Below, in pieces: positions 14,869 through 34,878 of a stretch of 34,878 nt of DNA. The stretch spans positions 1 to 34,878 of the IMG/VR virus record IMGVR_UViG_3300048838_001813, one strand, 5' to 3'. Origin of the DNA: a virus. A model generated the notes under the pieces. The model searched no databases, had not been told where the DNA came from, and saw only the letters and a program-made list of their open reading frames with translations. A program made the position numbers and the translations under genes. Numbering within the stretch: the first letter of the stretch is position 1; each line of letters begins with the position of its first letter.

Positions 14869-15999
14869 TCAGGCGGTCAGCGAGGGCGCATGACCGTAGT
14901 GCGCCTGGTACAGCGCGGTGAAGACGTTCTTGTCCTTCGCCATCAGCTCCTGAAGGCCCTTCGGGTCCTTGGCCGCCCACATGGCATAGTCCCAGTTCTC
15001 GCGCCCTTTTGCCGAAGCGGTCACGGCACCGGCCTCGGCACCGGCACGCACTTCATCCGCCACGTTCGGGGCGGCGGACAGCGCCTCTACCTCAGCCTTG
15101 GTGGCATCGAAGGCGGCATTAAACTTGGCCTCGTAACTGGCGCGGTGCGCCTCGGTCAGCTTCCGGTCGGCGATCGCCTTGTCCAGCACCGCCTTCACCT
15201 CACCCTCACGCAGCGCCTTGGCAGCTTCCGCATGGCGGGTGTTCTCCTTTTTCAGCGCTTCCACACGGGCCAGCACTTCGGCCTCGGTGGCCACTTCGGA
15301 CATACCCAATAGGGCACGCATCGCTTTGATATCCATCTCGTCGTGTTTAGGGGCCGTTCGGGCCTTGGGTAGCTTATCGGCAGGGCAGCCACAGGCCGCA
15401 ATGCGCGACACGGCTTCCTCGTCCATCAGTTCTTCGTTGTCTTCCGCTGCGGCATCCTCCACCAGGCCATCGGCCAAGCCTTCGGCCACGGCCTCGGTAC
15501 CGGTGAACCACCGGTCGCCCTTGCTCCACATCGCCTCCACCTCATCGTCGGTCTTGCCGGTCTTGGTGGCGTATGCGGCGCGATACTCCTGGGTGATGTC
15601 CTTGATCGCTTTCAGCGAACTCTGCAATTCGTCCTCGTTCCCGGCCACGCCCACCATGGGCTTATGCACCATCACGGCGGTGTCCGGACGCAGGTGGAAA
15701 GCATCGGCCTTCACCGCGATGTAGGTGGCCGCACTGGCCACCATGGCACCACCTTCCACGGTGATGCTTCCCGTGAGCTTGCGCATGGCGGCCACGATAC
15801 GCTTTGCCTCCAGCACGTTGCCTCCCTCGCTATCAATGTACACGTGCGCATCGCGTATGCCCTTCGCTGCGATCTGCGCAATGCTCTCGCCGAACGCTTT
15901 TGCGCTGGCCCCCTCAAAGGAGTTGATCACTCCTTCGATACGGATGTCCGCACGGCGGCCATTGGCCTGGGCGGTGATGTGCAAGGGGCGTTTTCCCAT
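14869..15999 (-). CDS. Head maturation protease fused to scaffold (Mu gpI/Z-like)
   Basis: The ATG at 15999 is used, since the longer frame begins with TTG. The 376-residue product has a ClpP-like S14/S49 serine protease domain in residues 1-180: Ser89 in AMVASAATYIA, His112 in VMVHKPM, and an Asp in 150-162. Around residue 48 are HVYIDSEGGNVLEAKR, the usual oligomer strand. Residues 220-330 are a charged coiled-coil scaffold part (EALKKENTRHAEAAKALREG). In Mu, I and the nested Z give protease and scaffold from one gene. It works inside the prohead and is removed on maturation. Divergent from the terminase genes across a 127-bp region. Confidence 0.8.
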   Translation of the reverse strand: MGKRPLHITAQANGRRADIRIEGVINSFEGASAKAFGESIAQIAAKGIRDAHVYIDSEGGNVLEAKRIVAAMRKLTGSITVEGGAMVASAATYIAVKADAFHLRPDTAVMVHKPMVGVAGNEDELQSSLKAIKDITQEYRAAYATKTGKTDDEVEAMWSKGDRWFTGTEAVAEGLADGLVEDAAAEDNEELMDEEAVSRIAACGCPADKLPKARTAPKHDEMDIKAMRALLGMSEVATEAEVLARVEALKKENTRHAEAAKALREGEVKAVLDKAIADRKLTEAHRASYEAKFNAAFDATKAEVEALSAAPNVADEVRAGAEAGAVTASAKGRENWDYAMWAAKDPKGLQELMAKDKNVFTALYQAHYGHAPSLTA

Positions 16000-16126
16000 G
16001 TGGTGCCGCAAACATGGCGACGTCCGGAAGCCCTCACCAAATCAAACATCCACCACGGCGTAACATGTTCCGACACTGCGGGAATTTGACCGCGCGCGCG
16101 TCTCCTTGGGAGGGCACATTTGCAAC
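16000..16126. promoter_or_regulatory. Divergent late promoter region
   Basis: This 127-bp stretch separates the leftward capsid/tail transcript from the rightward packaging transcript, so at least two late promoters must lie here or be read from outside. It contains a perfect 8-bp palindrome aacatgtt at 16062-16069, a possible activator site, a (cg) run at 16090-16100 and a good Shine-Dalgarno-like gggaggg before the terminase start. On the minus strand gatgtttg is one mismatch from TAnnTTTG. No activator gene of the Mu C/Mor type was recognised. Confidence 0.4.
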
Positions 16127-16588
16127 ATGGCCAAGGATGGAGCAAGGGCGAATGCCCGCATCATGTTCGTGGAGCAGGGCAAGAGCCGAAAGGAGATCGC
16201 CGAGCTGCTGAAGGTCCGCGAAAAGACCGTGGGGGAATGGGCCTCCAAAGGCAACTGGGAGGACCAGCGCACCGCGCACCTCACCAGCAGCCAACAGGTG
16301 GAACGCAGCCTGAAGGGCTTGATCCAGACCTACACGGAACAGCTCACCGTGATGGAGCGGGAAGGTGATGGGGACCCCAGGGAAAAGGCCCGATTGGTGG
16401 ACGCACTGGTAAAGACCAGCAAGACCCTGGAGGTGGTGCGCAACGAGAACGACATCAGCCTGAGCGCTCGCATCCGTGTGATGGACTGGCTCTTCAACGC
16501 TTTGCAGAAGCACGACGAAAAGCTGCACAGGGATCTGATCGACTTTCAATCCACGATGCTTGAAGAGGCGGCACGCCTGCACGCATGA
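16127..16588 (+). CDS. Small terminase subunit (HTH, Mu gp27-like)
   Basis: The start at 16127 (MAKDGARANARIMFVEQ) is preferred because it follows gggaggg by about ten bases; a longer frame adds seven residues. The 153-residue protein has an N-terminal helix-turn-helix (residues 13-45: KSRKEIAELLKVREKTVGEW), typical for DNA-recognising small terminase subunits, then a helical oligomerisation part with EKARLVDALVKTSKTLEVV. It selects phage DNA and hands it to the large subunit, whose gene overlaps its stop through ATGA. Confidence 0.75.
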   Translation: MAKDGARANARIMFVEQGKSRKEIAELLKVREKTVGEWASKGNWEDQRTAHLTSSQQVERSLKGLIQTYTEQLTVMEREGDGDPREKARLVDALVKTSKTLEVVRNENDISLSARIRVMDWLFNALQKHDEKLHRDLIDFQSTMLEEAARLHA

Positions 16589-18126
16589 GCAAAGTCGTAC
16601 GCGAGCGCAAGCGCGGCCTGCGCGAACTGGAACAGTACCGGCGCAAGCTGGAGATACTGCGGGCCAGCAAGGGCTTCAACCTCCACGAGACGGCGGATGA
16701 GCAACACCGCCGCATAGAGGCCGCGAAGGCCGACCCCGTCACCTTCGCTGAAACTTACCTGCCCGACTATTGCACCGCCAAGTGCGCCACCTTCCAGGAC
16801 CAGGCCGCACGCCGCATCCTGCGCACCAAGGACATCCGTATCGTATTGCGTTGGGCACGCGCCCACGCGAAGAGCGTCTGGGCCGACATCATCATCCCGC
16901 TTTGGCTATGGGCTAAAGGCGAACCGATGTACCTGGTCATCATTGGCAGCAGTTTCGATAAGGCAAAGACGCTTTTGAGCGACGTTCAAGCGGAGTTCGA
17001 GGCCAACCCCAGATTGCTGCACGACTTCGGTGAACAGCAGATGGACGGCAACTGGACCGACGGCTACTTCAGCACCAAGGGCGGCTTCGTCGGTGCCGCG
17101 CTGGGCATGGGCCAAAGCGTAAGGGGCCTGCGCAAACGCGCCCTGCGCCCCACCTACATCGTGCTGGACGACACCGAGACGCGGCAGCTCTGCAAGAACC
17201 CCAAGCGCCTTGCCGAAATGGTCCACTGGGTGGAGACGGACGTGCTCGGTACCATGGACGGGGCCACCCAGCGCTTAGTGATCGCCAACAACCGTTTCGC
17301 CCCGGACATGATCCAGGTGCGGCTTTTGGAGAAGCACAAGGACTGGATATGCCACGAAGTGAAGGCATACGACCCTGTGACCTTCCTGGCCACGTGGCCG
17401 GAGAAGTACGGCACCGACGACACCTACTGGCGGGACATGGAGCGCAAGAACGGCAGCTTGGCCGTCCGCGCCGAATACCTCAACGAGCCGCACGTGGAGG
17501 GCAGCATCTTCACCGACGATCTCTTCAACTGGGGCAGGCCACCGCGCATCGACCACTTCGTGTGCATCGTGGGCCATTGGGACGTCGCCTACGCCGGGAC
17601 CCGGACGGCGGACTACAACGCCGTCCGCGTATGGGGCTTGGACAAAGACAACCGGTACTGGCTCATCGGCACCTATTGCAAGCAGAGCAAGATGGCCGCC
17701 GCCGTGCGCTGGATGGTGCAGTTCGACAAGGCGCTGCCCGACAGCGCCGTGATACGCTGGCAGTATGAAAGCCAGTTCTGGAACGACGAGCTGGAACGCA
17801 CCGTGCGCGATGTATGCCATGAAGAGGCGCACGAGCTGCGCTTGGCCCAGGCCGAGCGCGGCAAGGCCAATAAGTACGAACGCATCCTTACCCTGCATCC
17901 CTACTATCAGAACGGGCGCGTGTGGTACAGCGATAAGGCGAAAAGCGAGAGCGACGCGCTGGTGGCCCTGGCCCAACTGAAAGGCATCGAGCCCGGCTAT
18001 TCCTCTCATGACGATGCCCCCGATGCCGACGAGCAGGCCATCGGCGTACTGAGCCGCGAAGTGCTGGCCCGCGAATGGAACGACCCCGTGCTCGGCGAGC
18101 GCCAACGCCCCAAAAACATCTGGTAA
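16585..18126 (+). CDS. Large terminase subunit (Mu gp28-like)
   Basis: A 513-residue packaging ATPase and nuclease. The N-terminal ATPase part has a Walker A-like RWARAHAKSVW at 89-99 (the classical lysine is replaced or shifted, as in many large terminases), a Walker B YIVLDDTE at 191-198, and IVIGSSF-like strands before it. The C-terminal RNase H-type nuclease has the first aspartate in GHWDVAYAGTRTADYN (Asp333, Asp343) and the last acidic group in SSHDDAPDADEQAIG near 475-485. It drives DNA into the prohead and cuts it, in transposable phages by headful packaging with host flanks. Length fits the family. Confidence 0.9.
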   Translation: MSKVVRERKRGLRELEQYRRKLEILRASKGFNLHETADEQHRRIEAAKADPVTFAETYLPDYCTAKCATFQDQAARRILRTKDIRIVLRWARAHAKSVWADIIIPLWLWAKGEPMYLVIIGSSFDKAKTLLSDVQAEFEANPRLLHDFGEQQMDGNWTDGYFSTKGGFVGAALGMGQSVRGLRKRALRPTYIVLDDTETRQLCKNPKRLAEMVHWVETDVLGTMDGATQRLVIANNRFAPDMIQVRLLEKHKDWICHEVKAYDPVTFLATWPEKYGTDDTYWRDMERKNGSLAVRAEYLNEPHVEGSIFTDDLFNWGRPPRIDHFVCIVGHWDVAYAGTRTADYNAVRVWGLDKDNRYWLIGTYCKQSKMAAAVRWMVQFDKALPDSAVIRWQYESQFWNDELERTVRDVCHEEAHELRLAQAERGKANKYERILTLHPYYQNGRVWYSDKAKSESDALVALAQLKGIEPGYSSHDDAPDADEQAIGVLSREVLAREWNDPVLGERQRPKNIW

Positions 18127-18127
18127 C

Positions 18128-18631
18128 ATGCCCACTGCCTACACCTTCCTTACCGATAGCGACGTGCGCAGCCGCGTCCGCGACGAACACCTGAACGACC
18201 TGGTGGACCGCGACACCTTAGTGGTAGCACCCGACCCTTCCGATACCGAGGCCTATGCCGCCTACATCGCCGCGCTGAACGCCAGCGAGACCGTGAAGGT
18301 GAGCTGCGAGAGCATGGCCATTGCCAAGGTGCGCAGCGTGTTGAGCAACCGTTTCGACACCACGGGCCTGCTCTCCGCCACCGGCGAGGACCGCCACCCG
18401 CTGCTGGTGCTCCACGTGCTCAACGTGATGGTATACCTGCTCTACCGGCGCATCAACCCGCGCAAGGTGCCCGAAGTAGTGAAGGAGGACCACGACGAAA
18501 CCCTCGCCTGGTTGGACCGCGTGTCCGACGGGCGGGAAGCCCCGGACTTCCCGCCGGTGGAACCACCCGAGGACAATGCGGGATTACCCCGTGTCGGGGG
18601 TGCATGGATACCCAAGGGCCATTACTTCTGA
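18128..18631 (+). CDS. Head-tail connector, DUF1320 (Mu gp36-like)
   Basis: A 167-residue protein one base after the terminase stop. It opens with TAYTFLTDSDVRSRVRDEHL, the typical beginning of DUF1320/gp36 connector proteins ('..fit..dl...i....l..l'), and has a helical middle with ESMAIAKVRSVLSNRFDT and LVLHVLNVMVYLLYRRINPR, which fits their helical bundle. The C-terminus is proline- and acid-rich. In Mu the gene lies after the capsid gene; here it has moved to the packaging block. Confidence 0.7.
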   Translation: MPTAYTFLTDSDVRSRVRDEHLNDLVDRDTLVVAPDPSDTEAYAAYIAALNASETVKVSCESMAIAKVRSVLSNRFDTTGLLSATGEDRHPLLVLHVLNVMVYLLYRRINPRKVPEVVKEDHDETLAWLDRVSDGREAPDFPPVEPPEDNAGLPRVGGAWIPKGHYF

Positions 18632-19013: not shown

Positions 19014-19453
19014 TGACCTGGCTGCTCCCTTTCGTGCTTTACGCGGCAGCTTATGCCGCCGGATTGCTGGTGGCCATCCCGCAGGCCATCCTTATCCAGA
19101 GCAACAAGCCCATACGCCACGGCCTGTGGCTCTCCGCCTACATCGTGGTGGGCTTCCTTTCCGCATGGATGACCATGCCCAGCGCCGCATGTGCCTTGCT
19201 GGCCAGCGCCGGTATGGCCGGTGTGTTCAGTGCCTCCTTCCGCTTCTACCTCAACGACCTCCGCGAACTGCCCACCGGCTACTTGGGGCCGGATCCCGCC
19301 AACGGTCCCGCGCCCGGACGCAGCCGTTACGACATGCTGATGTGGCGCACGGCGCGGTACTTCCGCTGCCCGCCGGTGCGGGTGGCACTTTTTCTTGAAC
19401 TCGGCACGGCAGCAGCCGTGTACATCATTCTGGTGCTCGAATGCAACAACTGA
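19013..19453 (+). CDS. Multi-segment membrane protein
   Basis: Start at 19013, coupled to the upstream stop (TGATG). The 146-residue protein has about four hydrophobic segments: 3-22, 37-54, 56-74 and 122-141. Between the third and fourth is a soluble loop with LNDLRELPTGYLGPDPANG and GRSRYDMLMWRTARY. It ends 13 bases inside the portal gene. With the 73-residue protein it forms a membrane pair inserted in the packaging block. Possible roles are superinfection exclusion, holin partner or membrane recruitment of prohead assembly, which would be interesting given the hydrophobic capsid N-terminus. Not recognised as a known family. Confidence 0.65.
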   Translation: MTWLLPFVLYAAAYAAGLLVAIPQAILIQSNKPIRHGLWLSAYIVVGFLSAWMTMPSAACALLASAGMAGVFSASFRFYLNDLRELPTGYLGPDPANGPAPGRSRYDMLMWRTARYFRCPPVRVALFLELGTAAAVYIILVLECNN

Positions 19454-22107
19454 ACCGCCCCAATATCCTGAGCCGCATCCGTGCGGCCTTCACCCCCATG
19501 CTGCTGCATCCTGCACAGATGCAGAGCTTCCGCATGCCCGACCTGGAGCGCTGGGCCATGCCCCACCGCAGTGTGGACATGGAAGACTGGGAGGCCGCGC
19601 TGAACATGGCCAAGAACCTGTTGCGCCCGGACCGCACCCGCCTGATGGACCTGTACGACAGCATCCTGAAGGATGCCCACTTGGGCAGTGTGATGGAGAC
19701 GCGGGTATTGCGCGTGGTGCGGGGCAAGTTCATGCTCACCGATGCCGACGGCAAGCCCCGGCCCGACCTGCTGCACCTGTTGGAAACGCAGTGGTTCGAG
19801 GACTTCCTCCAGTACGTCACCGAAGCCCTCTTCTTCGGCCACAGCCTCATTGAGCTGGGCGAACTGGCACGGCCCGGCGAGCTGCGGCAGGTGAACCGGA
19901 TAGACCCGCGCAACGTGCTGCCTTACCAAGGCATCGTGGCGCGGCGGCGCGGCGAGGAGACCGGCTACCTCTTCCGCGAGGAACCCTTGCGCAGCTACCT
20001 CATTGAAGTAGGCCGCCCGGACGACCTCGGCCTGTTGGAGCGCGTCGCCCCCGTGGCCGTGGTGAAGAAGTACGCCATCGGGAGCTGGAGCGCCTTCGTG
20101 GGCACCTACGGCATCCCCAGCCGCTGGATAAAGACGCGGGGCAACGATGCCCGCCGCGTGAAGCAGTTGGAGACCGTGATGCAGAACATGATGAGCAGCG
20201 CCTATGCCATCATACAGGGTGATGAAGAGTTCGGCATTGCGCCCACGCCCGCCGGGGACCCCGTGAAGGTGTTCGACGACCTGGTGAGCCGCATGAACAG
20301 CGAGATCAGCAAGCGCATCCTCGGCCAGGACGGGACCACCGACAACAAAGATGCCAGCGGCACCTACGGCAGCCTGAAAGTACTGGCAGGCGTGGCCGAG
20401 GACCGCCATGCCGCCGACAAGGCCAGTGCCGCCTACGTGGTGAACCAGGAGCTGCTGCCGCGTTTAACGGCCCTTGGATACCCGTTCAAAGGCATCCGCT
20501 TCGCGTGGGACGCCATGCAGGACCTCAGCCCCACCGAGATCGTGGACGCGGTAAGCAAGCTGGGGCTGGTGTTCGACATCGACCCGGAGTACATCGAGAA
20601 GCGCACAGGCATCCGCATCCTGGGGGCGCGAAGGATGCCGGGGGAACTGGGGCCGGAAGGAGGCAACCCGCCGGGCAGCGGCAGGCAGACCGGGGCACCG
20701 GAACCCAAGCCGGAAGAAGAGACCGGCGACGACACGGAAGAGGACGGCGCAGGCGTGACTGCGCATTGGGGCGGCGAAGCGCCCACCTGCGCTATCTGCG
20801 GTGGTGGAGGCATGGCCGAGGCTGCTGCCGTGCCGCCCGTACCCATCGAAGCCGTGGAGAGCCTGCTGCGCTCCGCCTTCGACGGGGCGGCGTTCGACGC
20901 GGCCTACTTCGATGCCATCGCCAACCTGTACGTGGCGGAACTGGACAGGACCTGGAACCCGGCCATGCTCAATGTAGGTACCGCAGCCCCCCAGCACGTG
21001 GCACACGCGCTGATGGAGTCGAACCTGTACCAGTTCAGCGGACTGAAGACACTGGCCATCGCCCTGGATGTGAACGCACACGCCAAGGAGGGCGGCACCT
21101 TCGCCACCTTCAAACGCCGCGTGGACGAGAGCGGACTGATCGAGAAGTACAATGTGCATCAGCTCCGGGCCGAATACACCAACGTGGCCATGAGCGGCAT
21201 ACAGGCCGGGCGGTATTACCAGATGCAGCAGACCGCCGATGTACTGCCCTATGGTGAGTATGTCACCGTGGGCGACCTGCGCGTCCGCGCCGCACATGCC
21301 GACCTGAACGGGAAGATATGGCCGCTGGACCACGATGCCTGGAAGTCCATTTGGCCGCCCAACGGATGGAACTGCCGTTGCACCGTGCTGCCCACGGAGG
21401 CCGGGAAGAGAGGGAAAGCTGCGGACGACCAATGGGACCAGGCCCAAGCGGAACTGAAGCGCAGCGGGGAATGGAACCAGATGGCCAAGGGCGGCTTCCA
21501 GGGCAACCGCGCACAGAGCGGCACCATCTTCGACCTTGGCAGCTATCGCAAGGACCTGGCCAAGAATGCCGGGCGGAAGAGACTGGACAAGCTCAACGTG
21601 GAGGACTCATACGGGCGCAAGGACATGGACATGGACACGCTGATAAAGCGGCCAGGACTCCCTACCATTACGCCACAGGTCGCCGATGAGGCCGGATACA
21701 AACCCTGGTTCATCACGCAGCGTGATAAGCGCAGCGACGACAAAGGCCGGGCCATCTTCAATGACTACCGGGAGCGGCCTTGGGCGCTGGACCTCTCAAC
21801 CCTCAACCGCCATGCCGGAAAGGAGTACAATGCTGGCAGACGCTGGGAGTACGTCCATGAGATCCCGAACATCCTGCGCGGGCCTGACGAAGTGTGGGCG
21901 AAGAAGGACAGGGGCGGACGGACCTCTTGGCAATTCATCAAATACTACCAAGGTGAGGCGATCGTCGTTCGTGCCGAGATCCCCAAGACCGCGGAGCTGC
22001 GCGGCGGTGTACTGGAAGTGACAAGCTGGTACAAGCTCGACGCAAGATCGGAACACGCCGTCCGGAGCGGAACACTCATAAAGAAGATGCCTGCGCAAAC
22101 CAACTAA
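19441..22107 (+). CDS. Portal (DUF935) - Mu F head protein - nuclease-like C-terminus fusion
   Basis: An 888-residue protein. Residues 1-400 are a DUF935 portal (Mu gp29): MEDWEAALNMAKNLLRP, FGHSLIELGEL, VKKYAIGSWSAFVGTYGIP, GQDGTTDNKDASGTYGSLKV. A linker (400-460) is Gly/Pro/acid-rich and has a CAIC at 450-453. Residues 480-655 are the Mu F-like minor head domain, with the signature HADLNGKIWPLDHDAWKSIW and NGWNCRCTVLP. Residues 775-885 look like the BECR-fold (barnase/EndoU/colicin/RelE) nuclease-like domains known at the ends of Mu F proteins: EYVHEIPNILRGPDEVW, SWQFIKYYQGEAIVVRAEIP, SGTLIKKM. The first two parts form the portal vertex; the last may be an injected toxin. Portal and F are separate genes in Mu. 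Confidence 0.8.
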   Translation: MQQLNRPNILSRIRAAFTPMLLHPAQMQSFRMPDLERWAMPHRSVDMEDWEAALNMAKNLLRPDRTRLMDLYDSILKDAHLGSVMETRVLRVVRGKFMLTDADGKPRPDLLHLLETQWFEDFLQYVTEALFFGHSLIELGELARPGELRQVNRIDPRNVLPYQGIVARRRGEETGYLFREEPLRSYLIEVGRPDDLGLLERVAPVAVVKKYAIGSWSAFVGTYGIPSRWIKTRGNDARRVKQLETVMQNMMSSAYAIIQGDEEFGIAPTPAGDPVKVFDDLVSRMNSEISKRILGQDGTTDNKDASGTYGSLKVLAGVAEDRHAADKASAAYVVNQELLPRLTALGYPFKGIRFAWDAMQDLSPTEIVDAVSKLGLVFDIDPEYIEKRTGIRILGARRMPGELGPEGGNPPGSGRQTGAPEPKPEEETGDDTEEDGAGVTAHWGGEAPTCAICGGGGMAEAAAVPPVPIEAVESLLRSAFDGAAFDAAYFDAIANLYVAELDRTWNPAMLNVGTAAPQHVAHALMESNLYQFSGLKTLAIALDVNAHAKEGGTFATFKRRVDESGLIEKYNVHQLRAEYTNVAMSGIQAGRYYQMQQTADVLPYGEYVTVGDLRVRAAHADLNGKIWPLDHDAWKSIWPPNGWNCRCTVLPTEAGKRGKAADDQWDQAQAELKRSGEWNQMAKGGFQGNRAQSGTIFDLGSYRKDLAKNAGRKRLDKLNVEDSYGRKDMDMDTLIKRPGLPTITPQVADEAGYKPWFITQRDKRSDDKGRAIFNDYRERPWALDLSTLNRHAGKEYNAGRRWEYVHEIPNILRGPDEVWAKKDRGGRTSWQFIKYYQGEAIVVRAEIPKTAELRGGVLEVTSWYKLDARSEHAVRSGTLIKKMPAQTN

Positions 22108-22170
22108 AAAGGAACCCCCGTGTTAGTAGGGAGACCGGTCCATTGGCCACGCAGGCAACACCACAAAGAT

Positions 22171-22704
22171 ATGCCGATAAAGGGAATGGACCAAGTGATG
22201 CGCAAGGCGCTGGCCCTGCAAAAGGCCATGGAGCGCCAGGTGCCGGTGAAGATGCAGGCGGCGGCGGTGAAGGTGTTCCGCGCCAACTTCACCGCCCAAG
22301 GCTATGTGGACAATGGCGTGGACCCGTGGGCCGCCCGCAAGGTGATGCCCAAGATGTCCCGCCCGCGCCCTTCGCCCAAGATACTGATACGCTCGGCCCT
22401 GCTGATCAACAGCATCCGGCCCAATGGCCAGGCCAGTTGGAACCGCATCAGCGTAAAGGCGGGCGGTCCGCACGTGCCCTACGCGCAGATACACAATGAT
22501 GGCGGTACCATCCGGGGCACCTTCGGCGTACGCCAGCACGAACGGCGCAGCCCCAAGGGCAAGAAAAGCAACGTGCGCCAGCACACCCGCACGGTGAACA
22601 CCACCATCCCCCAGCGCCGCTACATGGGCAACAGCCGCGCATTGGGCACGGCCATGCGCCAGGAGATCATGAAGGCTGTCGCTAAAACCATGCTGAACAA
22701 ATGA
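22171..22704 (+). CDS. Virion morphogenesis protein (Mu gpG-like)
   Basis: The start at 22171 (MPIKGMDQVMRKALALQK) avoids a basic, unlikely N-terminal extension and leaves a 63-base gap after the portal fusion. The 177-residue protein has the gpG / phage virion morphogenesis pattern: a helix, then VKVFRANFTAQGYVDNG followed by W-A-R, ILIRSALLINSIRP, VPYAQIHNDGGTIRG and a C-terminal RRYMGNS motif. It acts in joining head and tail. It is coupled to the next gene by ATGA. Confidence 0.75.
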   Translation: MPIKGMDQVMRKALALQKAMERQVPVKMQAAAVKVFRANFTAQGYVDNGVDPWAARKVMPKMSRPRPSPKILIRSALLINSIRPNGQASWNRISVKAGGPHVPYAQIHNDGGTIRGTFGVRQHERRSPKGKKSNVRQHTRTVNTTIPQRRYMGNSRALGTAMRQEIMKAVAKTMLNK

Positions 22705-23250: not shown

Positions 23251-23838
23251 TCAATTCGCCGGATCGATCATCAACATGCGGTAGAACGCAGTTGGGGCTA
23301 TGATGGTGAAGGAAGCGCCGCCAATCGTGGTCGTAGCACTATCCGTATCGAAATTGCTCTGCACCCAGTCGTGGGCCGCTTGCGGGTCAGCTCCGGTATA
23401 CGGAACACTGGCAATAAAAGACAGGTATTCCACCCCGGCCTGAATGACCTTACCGGCACCATCCACCATTACGGTGGCGGTCACATTGTCAACCTCCTTT
23501 GTACCCGGACCTGCGACATCCGCCGAGAAGGTAATGGAAGGCATCTCTTGAATACAGGTGCGCACGGAATACCCATCCTTGTGGATCTTTTTGATCACGA
23601 AGCCGCGCTTCTCCAAGCTCCGGTATACGTCAACCGGATTTAGGCCGGGAATGACGCGGTGCTCGACCTCTGCGGGAGCAGGCCCGCTCTCTGCACTGGC
23701 AGCCTTGGCCTTCCTCGCAGCAGCGGCCTCGGGTGTATCTGTTGCGATCACGGTGATCACGAGCAAGGCGATCAGTCCCCCTATGATGGAGAGGGTGATC
23801 TTCGCTCCCTTGGAAAATCCTTTTTTCGGCGTATCCAT
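23251..23838 (-). CDS. Membrane-anchored protein downstream of repressor, unknown
   Basis: A 195-residue protein with a short basic N-terminus, one membrane segment at about 12-32 and a long soluble part, probably outside the cytoplasm. After an alanine-rich linker (33-55) there is a compact domain with NPVDVYRSLEKRGFVIKKIH and VRTCIQEMPSITFSADVAG. No family recognised. Its position after the repressor and the second membrane protein, on the same strand, suggests expression in the lysogen. Candidates are superinfection exclusion or host modification. It is not needed by analogy with Mu structure genes. Confidence 0.6.
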   Translation of the reverse strand: MDTPKKGFSKGAKITLSIIGGLIALLVITVIATDTPEAAAARKAKAASAESGPAPAEVEHRVIPGLNPVDVYRSLEKRGFVIKKIHKDGYSVRTCIQEMPSITFSADVAGPGTKEVDNVTATVMVDGAGKVIQAGVEYLSFIASVPYTGADPQAAHDWVQSNFDTDSATTTIGGASFTIIAPTAFYRMLMIDPAN

Positions 23839-23853
23839 GGAGGCGAATGTAGG

Positions 23854-24303
23854 TCATCTTGCTGGTCGGCACCGGCGGCAAGGCTCATAACCCTCAGCTT
23901 TCGCCTCGCTGAGCGAAGTGGCGTAACTGCTCCTGCGCAGACTGCTGCAACCTGCACGGTGGTACTTCTCCCCGGTACTGGTGGTATACACGGTGATGCT
24001 CTTCTCTGGGTCAAGCTGCGGCGCAGGCTCCACTGGCGGTGGTAGCGGGGTCGCGAGAACCGGAACGGACAAGGGCGTCACAGCGCTGTCCACATGAGCA
24101 CTGTCCACAACCGTCGTCACAGCCGCAGTATCCTTAGTAGTGGCGCTTGTCTTTGGCGCGGCGGACGGCTCCGGGTCCATAATGGAGCCAATGATCACAA
24201 GCAACAGCACAAGGCCGACCCACGATGCGCAGCCTATGCCGGTCCATTTGAGCCATGGTCGCCAGCGGGACTGCTTTGTTTCTACCTGTGGCATAGCTGG
24301 CAT
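23854..24303 (-). CDS. Membrane-anchored protein with Ada-like zinc-binding C-terminus
   Basis: A 149-residue protein with a basic N-terminus, a membrane segment at 22-41, a Thr/Pro-rich linker (45-98) and a C-terminal domain beginning ITVYTTSTGEKYHRAGC. Its pattern His115, Cys119, Cys142, Cys145 with SLSEAKAEGYEPCRRC resembles the Ada-like metal-binding fold often found beside secreted nucleases and surface proteins. It follows the repressor with three bases between, so they should be co-transcribed in the lysogen. The role is unknown; a cell-surface change against other phages is one idea. Confidence 0.65.
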   Translation of the reverse strand: MPAMPQVETKQSRWRPWLKWTGIGCASWVGLVLLLVIIGSIMDPEPSAAPKTSATTKDTAAVTTVVDSAHVDSAVTPLSVPVLATPLPPPVEPAPQLDPEKSITVYTTSTGEKYHRAGCSSLRRSSYATSLSEAKAEGYEPCRRCRPAR

Positions 24304-24306
24304 ACC

Positions 24307-25032
24307 TCAACGCTTTTTCAGTTTGGCCACGTCCTGCTCCACGCGCACCAGTCGCACATTGAAGCTATGCCGCTGGTCTCCGGGGTTCTCCCTGATCAGC
24401 GCCAGCACATCATACACCATGGCGCTACCTTTTATGGTATATGGCGCAACGTCCGGATTGTCGCTCTCGCACAGGATCATCTCTTCCGCGAAGTCCACGC
24501 GCAGACGCTTGGCGCTTGCCCCTTCCGCCGTCACCACCACATACACCTGGCCCGGCCTCACCTGCTCCTTGGGACTATCGCATTTCCGCACCACCAACCA
24601 ATCACCATCCAAGATGGTAGGCTCCATGCTATCACCCGTGACCTGAATGGCCAGCAATCCGCCGCCCCGGAAGCGTTCCCCCGGCAGGGCCATGCGCGGC
24701 TGCTTGTCCAAGAACTCGCGCTGGCCTTGATGCTTCAGTAGCCCCGCCGCCACTTTGCTCCGCAAGGCGATGATGTTGCCCTCGGCGGTCGGGATGTCAA
24801 CTTTGGTAGAGGTGTCGTGCCGCATCATCCGCCCCTTTCCGGTGAGAAGCCAGTCGGCGTCAAGCTCCGGGAACCGCTGAACGATGGTCGCAATCGTATC
24901 GCTATGCAAGCCCTTACCTGCGGCGAGTGCCTTGTGAACGGTGGCTGGCTTTAGCTCTGTCTGCACGGCAAGCTGGTTCGGGTTCAACCCCTTTCGCTCC
25001 ATGAATTGCTTAAGCCGTGTCGTTATCGACAT
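24307..25032 (-). CDS. Prophage repressor, HTH with S24 (LexA/CI-like) peptidase
   Basis: A 241-residue repressor. Residues 5-50 hold the helix-turn-helix (NPNQLAVQTELKPATVHKAL). Residues 85-220 are the S24 peptidase domain: Ser135 in VTGDSMEPT, Lys175 in GASAKRLRV, and a likely self-cleavage Ala96-Gly97 in KVAAGLL. So it should be cut under SOS-type DNA damage and release the early genes. It is unlike Mu c, which is controlled by ClpX; a LexA-like repressor makes the phage inducible, as in D3112/B3-type or lambda-like systems. The start is next to the operator region and has a leader of about ten bases. Confidence 0.85.
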   Translation of the reverse strand: MSITTRLKQFMERKGLNPNQLAVQTELKPATVHKALAAGKGLHSDTIATIVQRFPELDADWLLTGKGRMMRHDTSTKVDIPTAEGNIIALRSKVAAGLLKHQGQREFLDKQPRMALPGERFRGGGLLAIQVTGDSMEPTILDGDWLVVRKCDSPKEQVRPGQVYVVVTAEGASAKRLRVDFAEEMILCESDNPDVAPYTIKGSAMVYDVLALIRENPGDQRHSFNVRLVRVEQDVAKLKKR

Positions 25033-34119: not shown

Positions 34120-34878
34120 ATGGTACTCAATCGCCTCGGCAACAAGCGGCGCATGGCCGCACGTATCTTGCCTCATATCCCGCCGCACCGTCATTGGATA
34201 GAACCCTTCTTCGGAGCGGGCGGTATGTTCTTCGCGAAGCCCAAGGCGGAGCGCAACATCGTCAACGACATGGACGAGGAGGTCTACAACCTCTTCTGCG
34301 TCATCCTGGACAAGCCGGAGGAATTGGCGGCGGCATGGGCATCCATGCCGTTGCACGAGGCCCTTTGGCGCAGGTGGAAGCACGAGACACCGACCGACCC
34401 GGTATGGAGGGCGGTACGCTTCCTGTTCCGCAGCAACTTCGGCTTCTTAGGCAAGCCGCACACGCAGCGGCTGAACAGCAAGAACGCCAAGCGCAGCCTC
34501 CAGGAGCGCATACAGGCCACCCGCGACGCGCTCTACGATGTGGAGTTCACCGGGTGTGACTTCCGCACCATGCTGGGCCGCATCCCGCTCTCGCCGCGTG
34601 AGCGCGAACTGGCCTACGTCTACGCGGACCCGCCCTACCTCGGAACGTCCAACAACTACGGCGCGGCCTCCTGCTGGACCGAGCTGGATACACGCGACCT
34701 GGTCTCAACGCTGGTAGCCAGCGGCCTGCGCTTCGGCATGAGCGAGTTCGACCATCCAATTGTAGTGGAACTGGCGCTGGAACATGGCCTGCATGTGATC
34801 AACCTCGGCGAGCGGAAGAACCTGAACAACCGCCGGACGGAACTCCTGCTCACGAACGTGCATCAACAAGGCCGTTGA
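34120..34878 (+). CDS. Dam-type (D12 class) DNA adenine methyltransferase
   Basis: A 252-residue enzyme with motif I at 29-38 (PFFGAGGMFF, S-adenosylmethionine binding) and motif IV DPPY at 170-173 in YADPPYLGTS. The order is that of the D12 class N6-adenine methyltransferases (Dam, T4 Dam, DpnM). Residues 60-160 form the target recognition part. It probably methylates phage DNA against host restriction or changes gene timing. It is the last gene in the window and ends at its last base; whether more phage genes follow is unknown. Confidence 0.85.
   Translation: MVLNRLGNKRRMAARILPHIPPHRHWIEPFFGAGGMFFAKPKAERNIVNDMDEEVYNLFCVILDKPEELAAAWASMPLHEALWRRWKHETPTDPVWRAVRFLFRSNFGFLGKPHTQRLNSKNAKRSLQERIQATRDALYDVEFTGCDFRTMLGRIPLSPRERELAYVYADPPYLGTSNNYGAASCWTELDTRDLVSTLVASGLRFGMSEFDHPIVVELALEHGLHVINLGERKNLNNRRTELLLTNVHQQGR

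Follow-up and report, generated by a model that had tools for sequence, protein, structure and literature searches.

By what means does a phage package just a few molecules of an injected enzyme per head? For MuF proteins this is an open question; in phage SPP1 the MuF protein gp7 is present in one to two copies, against about twelve portal subunits. The question is raised by the virus record IMGVR_UViG_3300048838_001813, which was examined as a whole (34,878 bases; 'the window' below) and in which one gene on the + strand (19441..22107) encodes a portal domain, a MuF domain and a predicted ribonuclease (RNase) domain, PBECR2, as a single protein. The answer that we favour, and that we consider well founded if short of certain, is that Mu-like phages, mainly of Bacteroidota, make both a portal and a portal–MuF(-effector) protein by programmed recoding at the junction, either through a -1 shift at T_TTT_TTC followed by a hairpin or through slippage on a run of nine to eleven A residues (A9-A11), which sets the number of MuF or effector copies per head. 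Where the two parts share a frame the shift would give the shorter product, and where they lie in separate frames it would give the fusion; the window would represent a lineage in which the fusion has become obligatory, with one effector per portal subunit.

The gene is an 888-codon frame that begins with ATG and runs to its stop without interruption. Residues 69-391 (19645..20613) match the portal family Portal_Mu / DUF935 (E 1.7e-61), residues 549-649 (21085..21387) match Phage_Mu_F (E 1.4e-13) as well as TIGR01641, and residues 767-877 (21739..22071) match PBECR2 (PF18810; E 5.1e-9), a predicted RNase of the BECR fold. All three Pfam matches exceed the curated cut-offs, that of PBECR2 with 36.8 bits against 27.1, which places the domain within the family. 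A sequence-only reading of this DNA had proposed a fusion of portal, Mu F and a C-terminal domain of about 110 residues, and both the three-part architecture and the size are confirmed, PBECR2 being 111 residues long. With its effector domain joined to a virion packaging protein, the gene product shares a feature of polyvalent, virion-injected effectors (Iyer et al., 2017). Portal and MuF are connected by an acidic, proline-containing linker (residues 392-527, 20614..21021), and it is in the equivalent stretch of relatives that the recoding signal falls. Disorder is predicted for its residues 397-460, a part of about 65 residues, and the predicted local distance difference test score (pLDDT) is below 50 at 397-423 and 425-460. 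Residues 450-453 read CAIC and belong to a short Cys/His-rich motif (C-x(0-2)-C-G-x-H-like) resembling a small metal site; motifs of this kind recur in most of the fused and MuF proteins, at the start of the MuF part and past the recoding site.

Relatives were collected by querying with an alignment that covered MuF and PBECR2, which returned 80 viral and 80 genome loci; the window protein alone as query had found no close relatives in viral contigs. Portal and MuF share a single frame at 73 of these loci, 71 of them with PBECR2, as scored by local profile models that were derived from the same loci; the loci are related to each other, and such counts do not represent independent events. PBECR2 is present in 88 of 95 fused genes, a proportion biased by the PBECR2-containing query and not used here as evidence. 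Scanned one by one, all 52 members of an alignment (A6) that combines the window protein with 51 homologues, likewise fused and taken from IMG/VR and GTDB genomes, matched Portal_Mu, Phage_Mu_F and PBECR2, which speaks against a chance fusion or a sequencing slip in the window; these proteins belong mainly to Mu-like phages and prophages of Bacteroidota. The genome loci that bear the fusion come almost entirely from Bacteroidota (host names being read from record titles). Nearest to the window gene are those of a Flavobacteriales metagenome bin (our locus L096; portal 70% identical) and of an IMG/VR contig (L301; portal 68%), in both of which the fusion likewise occupies one frame.

The first indication that the junction is recoded in relatives is provided by Flavobacterium phage fF4 (L004, position 4098), which has an A9 run with portal and MuF–PBECR2 as two genes, and a prophage of its host (L126), which has A10 and one gene. 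This may reflect a sequencing difference or a tract that can switch; the split in fF4 could be a homopolymer error, and the argument does not need it. The difference lies at the domain junction, and it led us to survey the junctions of 237 distinct loci. The portal–MuF linkers (96 kb) hold 49 runs of ten or more A residues, and the 2.77 Mb outside them a single one; for C, G and T, the linkers show no such degree of enrichment. Where an A10 run lies at a two-gene locus (12 cases), the portal frame always crosses it and stops 1-49 nucleotides (nt) later, and the MuF frame, in every case the -1 frame, is open from the run onwards. Lysine-rich linkers as the sole cause of the runs can be rejected: among 95 fused genes, 38 linkers contain A runs of ten or more where 15 are expected by synonymous resampling (maximum 26 in 500 rounds), so that lysine content explains part of the excess and not all of it. 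The run length peaks at ten in all codon phases, which speaks for transcriptional slippage; A9-A11 is thus a probable slippage site, the alternative being a ribosomal shift on A_AAA_AAG. Such runs are found both in two-gene loci (L005 4096, L049 6609, L112 9627, L169 9626, L179 and L183) and in one-gene loci (L022 6649, L097 9672, L107 9562, L126 and L253-L285).

A second element is the heptamer T TTT TTC, which at the junctions stands 88 times in the register for a -1 frameshift, against 20 and 3 times in the other two registers. At loci with two genes, the heptamer as a rule precedes a single codon and a stop, with a GC hairpin (GCCCC...GGGGC) six nt away from the heptamer; where there is one gene, translation passes through this element, which then encodes the protein motif FFxxAP...GA, and the -1 frame closes 45-99 nt past the start of the heptamer. 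The arms of the hairpin covary, with a score of 0.283 against 0.079 for shuffled columns; none of 500 shuffles reached this value, and the score drops when the arms are slid. The strict pattern of heptamer, six nt, GCCCC, loop and GGGGC is present at 71 of 302 loci, once in each and always on the coding strand; examples are L161 9635-9668, L006 2104-2137, L014 5230-5262 (a Bacteroides hankyphage), L030 6640-6675 and L002 4173-4205, with about 65 more. The least biased test is a scan of the IMG/VR viral collection with the DNA pattern only, which gave at least 118 matching stretches. Among the 118 matches listed, 98 lie between portal and MuF domains, 97 of these in register (MuF being in the -1 frame at 78 and fused at 19); in 7 further cases a portal or a MuF domain lies at the edge of a contig, and the other 13 stretches have no portal and no MuF. 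A junction of a different kind, A AAT TTT/C followed by one codon, a stop and another hairpin (GGAG...CTCC type), is seen in L080, L250, L062, L251, L191 and L200, and probably represents another form of this frameshift signal.

Among the 95 distinct fused loci, 42 have an A run, 36 have heptamer and stem and 17 have neither, and the signals are also present in many two-gene relatives. The predicted outcome of a -1 shift is a portal–MuF fusion in two-gene phages and a portal alone in one-gene phages; slippage on an A run would probably yield the same two products. The signal should therefore also yield a tail-less portal in most fused relatives, and in most relatives, from the junction sequences, recoding probably sets the dose of the MuF–effector part. 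The combination of a portal–effector fusion with a conserved dosing signal offers a direct and testable mechanism, in phages that can be cultured (the Bacteroides hankyphages and Flavobacterium phage fF4). The signal also accounts for the databases' listing of these genes as a single protein in certain phages and as two in the rest; many MuF toxins regarded as separate may really be made as portal fusions.

The window itself is different. The position of the relatives' T TTT TTC, located through the aligned FFxxAP / HWGGEAP motif, is occupied by T TGG GGC (20766..20772, + strand), which is not slippery and stands six nt before the codons of a conserved Ala-Pro (GCG CCC in the window, GCC CCN in relatives). 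No heptamer and no run above G5 or C6 was found in the window linker, and folding at the homologous site is no better than in shuffles (z -1.2). The C6 at 20987 and the G5 runs at 20622 and 20640 were considered as slippage sites and dismissed as too short, the C6 moreover adjoining MuF, outside the linker; a long open -1 frame within the gene (about gene nt 782-1814) was put down to high GC content. The junctions of L096 and L301 likewise contain neither an A run nor a heptamer with stem. On this comparison the signal is lost and the fusion is hard-wired in all three genomes, so that each portal subunit of the window phage and its closest relatives should be made with the tail. That every portal subunit carries the domain, as the sequence-only reading had it, would thus apply at most to this phage, where no shift signal was found, and is not to be generalised, the signal being present in 78 of 95 fused relatives; one effector-like tail per portal subunit fits the window phage better than most of its kin.

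What the tail may do is suggested by its predicted fold and its residues. In BECR RNases a His stands in the N-terminal helix and a Ser or Thr in strand 4, PBECR2 itself being only a predicted RNase (PMC5512222). In an AlphaFold2 model of residues 670-888 (mean pLDDT 86; predicted template modelling score 0.77), helix 785-792 holds His791 and is followed by strands 817-822, 828-836, 839-846 and 858-865, the fourth of which holds Ser862; the modelled order of helix and strands and the placement of both residues agree with the published BECR core (PMC5512222). Conservation was counted over 89 distinct fused homologues. The predicted catalytic residues His791 (21811..21813) and Ser862 (22024..22026, the putative catalytic alcohol) correspond to His in 71 and to Thr or Ser in 74 of them; Glu817 (21889..21891) is invariant, Lys834 (21940..21942) is kept in 83 and Arg875 (22063..22065) in 88. 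We therefore treat PBECR2 as a predicted RNase by profile and modelled topology rather than by a solved relative; the proposal of a BECR-type C-terminal domain is supported by the profile score, the topology and the presence of His, Lys, Ser and Tyr.

The region after MuF also evolves as an effector might. It carries PBECR2, LPD3, a CdiA_C-like domain (below cut-off) or a papain-fold glutamine deamidase, depending on the relative. The deamidase belongs to a Bacteroides hankyphage, and the protein with the CdiA_C-like domain is itself a portal–MuF fusion; effector-like domains other than PBECR2 follow MuF at L014 5272-6711, L006 2161-3399, L008 3829-5100 and L010 3863-6409. Between L028 and L073 the portal is 86% and MuF 82% identical and PBECR2 28%, with the fall beginning past MuF, and identities in the portal show a rank correlation of 0.63 with those in MuF and of 0.45 with those in PBECR2. 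By these sequence comparisons, PBECR2 diverges or is exchanged more quickly than the portal and MuF domains.

Taken as a whole, the account that we narrowly prefer is one in which a portal-anchored PBECR2 tail is delivered to the next host and cuts RNA early in infection. The portal domain would build the ring at the packaging vertex, with the disordered linker leading to MuF and then to the C-terminal PBECR2, so that MuF and effector would be anchored where DNA enters and leaves and their presence in the virion guaranteed. In relatives, recoding at the junction would probably dose the MuF–effector part, giving portal alone as well as portal–MuF–effector; in the window phage and its closest relatives each portal subunit would be made with its tail, unless cleaved later, which amounts to about a dozen tails per head if the ring is typical. 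PBECR2 would likely enter the next host with the DNA or just ahead of it and there likely cut host or defence RNA. The location of the tail at the ring, its injection, its RNase activity and its target are what we infer.

Alternatives to a single, intact gene product receive little support. An assembly or sequencing artefact joining two genes might be suspected from the homopolymer difference that alters the frame state between fF4 and the prophage of its host, but the junctions of the window and of L301 lack any run in which an indel might go unnoticed (the window's longest being G5 in the linker and C6 near MuF), and the independent fused genes of L096 and L301 effectively refute an artefact, to which we assign almost no weight. 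Separate translation of MuF–PBECR2 from a start within the linker, for which the sequence-only reading had allowed, would have a candidate in Met458, an in-frame ATG at 20812 that follows GGTGGTGGAGGC; the purine stretch is, however, too near this ATG for a normal ribosome-binding site, Met458 is absent from L301, and L096 has a Met in a different context. An internal start at this Met is therefore disfavoured and was rejected for want of conservation; we regard a separate product of this kind as very unlikely.

The function of the tail is more contestable, and several observations weigh against an injected RNase. Both the predicted catalytic His and the Ser/Thr are lost in 13 of the 89 homologues (L263, L264, L265, L270, L272, L273, L278, L282, L296, L297, L019, L035 and L120, which retain Glu and Arg), so that the domain can persist without them; in these lineages it is probably inactive or has a different active site. 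The match to a solved nuclease that a structural search might have supplied did not appear: Foldseek of the model against the PDB gave nothing at E <= 0.001 and no known BECR nuclease among the top 50, a null that is weak evidence given the insensitivity of the method to so divergent a fold, and a phmmer search of the C-terminus against the PDB gave a single chance match, which was dismissed. Foldseek against a viral library gave eight matches, mostly predicted polyvalent proteins with a minor capsid protein among them, which do not prove activity. Identity between the window and L096 falls in a graded way (portal 70%, MuF 48%, PBECR2 22%) and may reflect fast divergence rather than a swap, and that the fusion protein is present in the virion at all we infer from its sequence. 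The loss of both residues in some homologues and the lack of a PDB nuclease match, together with the retention of an inactive PBECR domain in Mu gp30 (PMC5512222) and the absence of a following immunity gene, favour a non-catalytic part in head assembly or packaging, such as binding of RNA or DNA at the vertex, as proposed for Mu gp30. We consider such a role a possibility to be taken seriously yet clearly the less likely one, since the window and most relatives retain His, Glu, Lys, Ser/Thr and Arg, unrelated enzyme-like domains occupy the same place in other phages, and the domain, unlike a structural component, evolves more quickly than the structural parts. A classical MuF polymorphic toxin, directed against competing bacteria and paired with a cognate immunity protein, would account for an exchangeable toxin-like C-terminus on a MuF carrier in a transposable and probably temperate phage (PMC5576092). 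It seems improbable to us: the domain is fused to the portal, a stoichiometric part of the virion, and the next gene, for a neck or tail completion protein (22120..22704, + strand), begins 12 nt past the stop of the fusion gene, so that in the window no immunity gene follows directly, as the sequence-only reading had observed; an immunity gene could lie elsewhere. In other fused loci the downstream gap varies, with a median of about 250 nt, and a small gene is possible there.

The rest of the window is, by its gene content, that of a Mu-like phage. Upstream of the fusion gene lie the genes of a terminase large subunit (16585..18126, +; a weak Terminase_6C match, with gene order as in L002) and a gp36-like head-tail adaptor (18128..18631, +). 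On the opposite strand is a ClpP-like head maturation protease (14869..16011, -) that could in principle cut the linker. The window further encodes a DUF2586 protein, a tape measure protein, a Mu-type transposase with its AAA partner, a DUF3164 protein and an adenine methylase; transposase, AAA partner and a repressor-like open reading frame (ORF; 24307-25032) hint, with weak profile scores, at a temperate lifestyle. Between the neck genes and this ORF, two minus-strand genes (23251-23838 and 23854-24303) are predicted to encode small proteins with N-terminal hydrophobic segments, and are possibly lysogen-expressed cargo; the protein of 23854-24303 has a Cys motif of the Ada type at its end (Pfam score borderline). 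The methylase, of the D12 class, is encoded at 34120-34878; its stop codon coincides with the final three bases of the record, which probably ends or has been cut at 34878.

The fusion is known in kind. In the part of Iyer et al. (2017) available to us (PMC5512222), fusions of PBECR with MuF and with portal domains are already described; they share domains, predicted active site and phage context with the window protein, and are named there in general terms, that part dealing with neither copy number nor recoding. The MuF toxins of Jamet et al. (2017; PMC5576092) resemble the window protein in having MuF with a variable, toxin-like C-terminus beside terminase and portal. Their genes lie downstream of that for the portal, most often with a small putative immunity ORF after them, whereas the window has the toxin-like extension on a packaging-module MuF that is fused to the portal, with no such ORF after it. 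In phage Mu the homologous portal domain is that of gp29 and the homologous MuF domain that of gp30, which ends in a PBECR domain as the window protein does; in Mu, portal and MuF are separate genes and PBECR is inactive, whereas in the window they are fused and the predicted active residues are present. Among named phages, this architecture is found in the transposable phages of Porphyromonas gingivalis (e.g. phage008a, BK068090; PMC10367356), whose 852-amino-acid portal–MuF–PBECR2 protein is annotated only as 'portal' and whose junction has the T_TTT_TTC and hairpin (L002 4173-4205) that the window lacks. Targeted literature searches and the portion of a frameshifting review that we could consult gave no earlier report of portal–MuF recoding; coverage of subscription papers was limited, and priority is not firm. 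Programmed -1 frameshifting is familiar from other phage structural genes, such as the tail chaperones and the capsid extensions of T3 and A2 (PMC5009743), where a heptamer and a downstream stem set the ratio of short to extended product; the likeness applies to the relatives of the window phage and not to the window phage itself.

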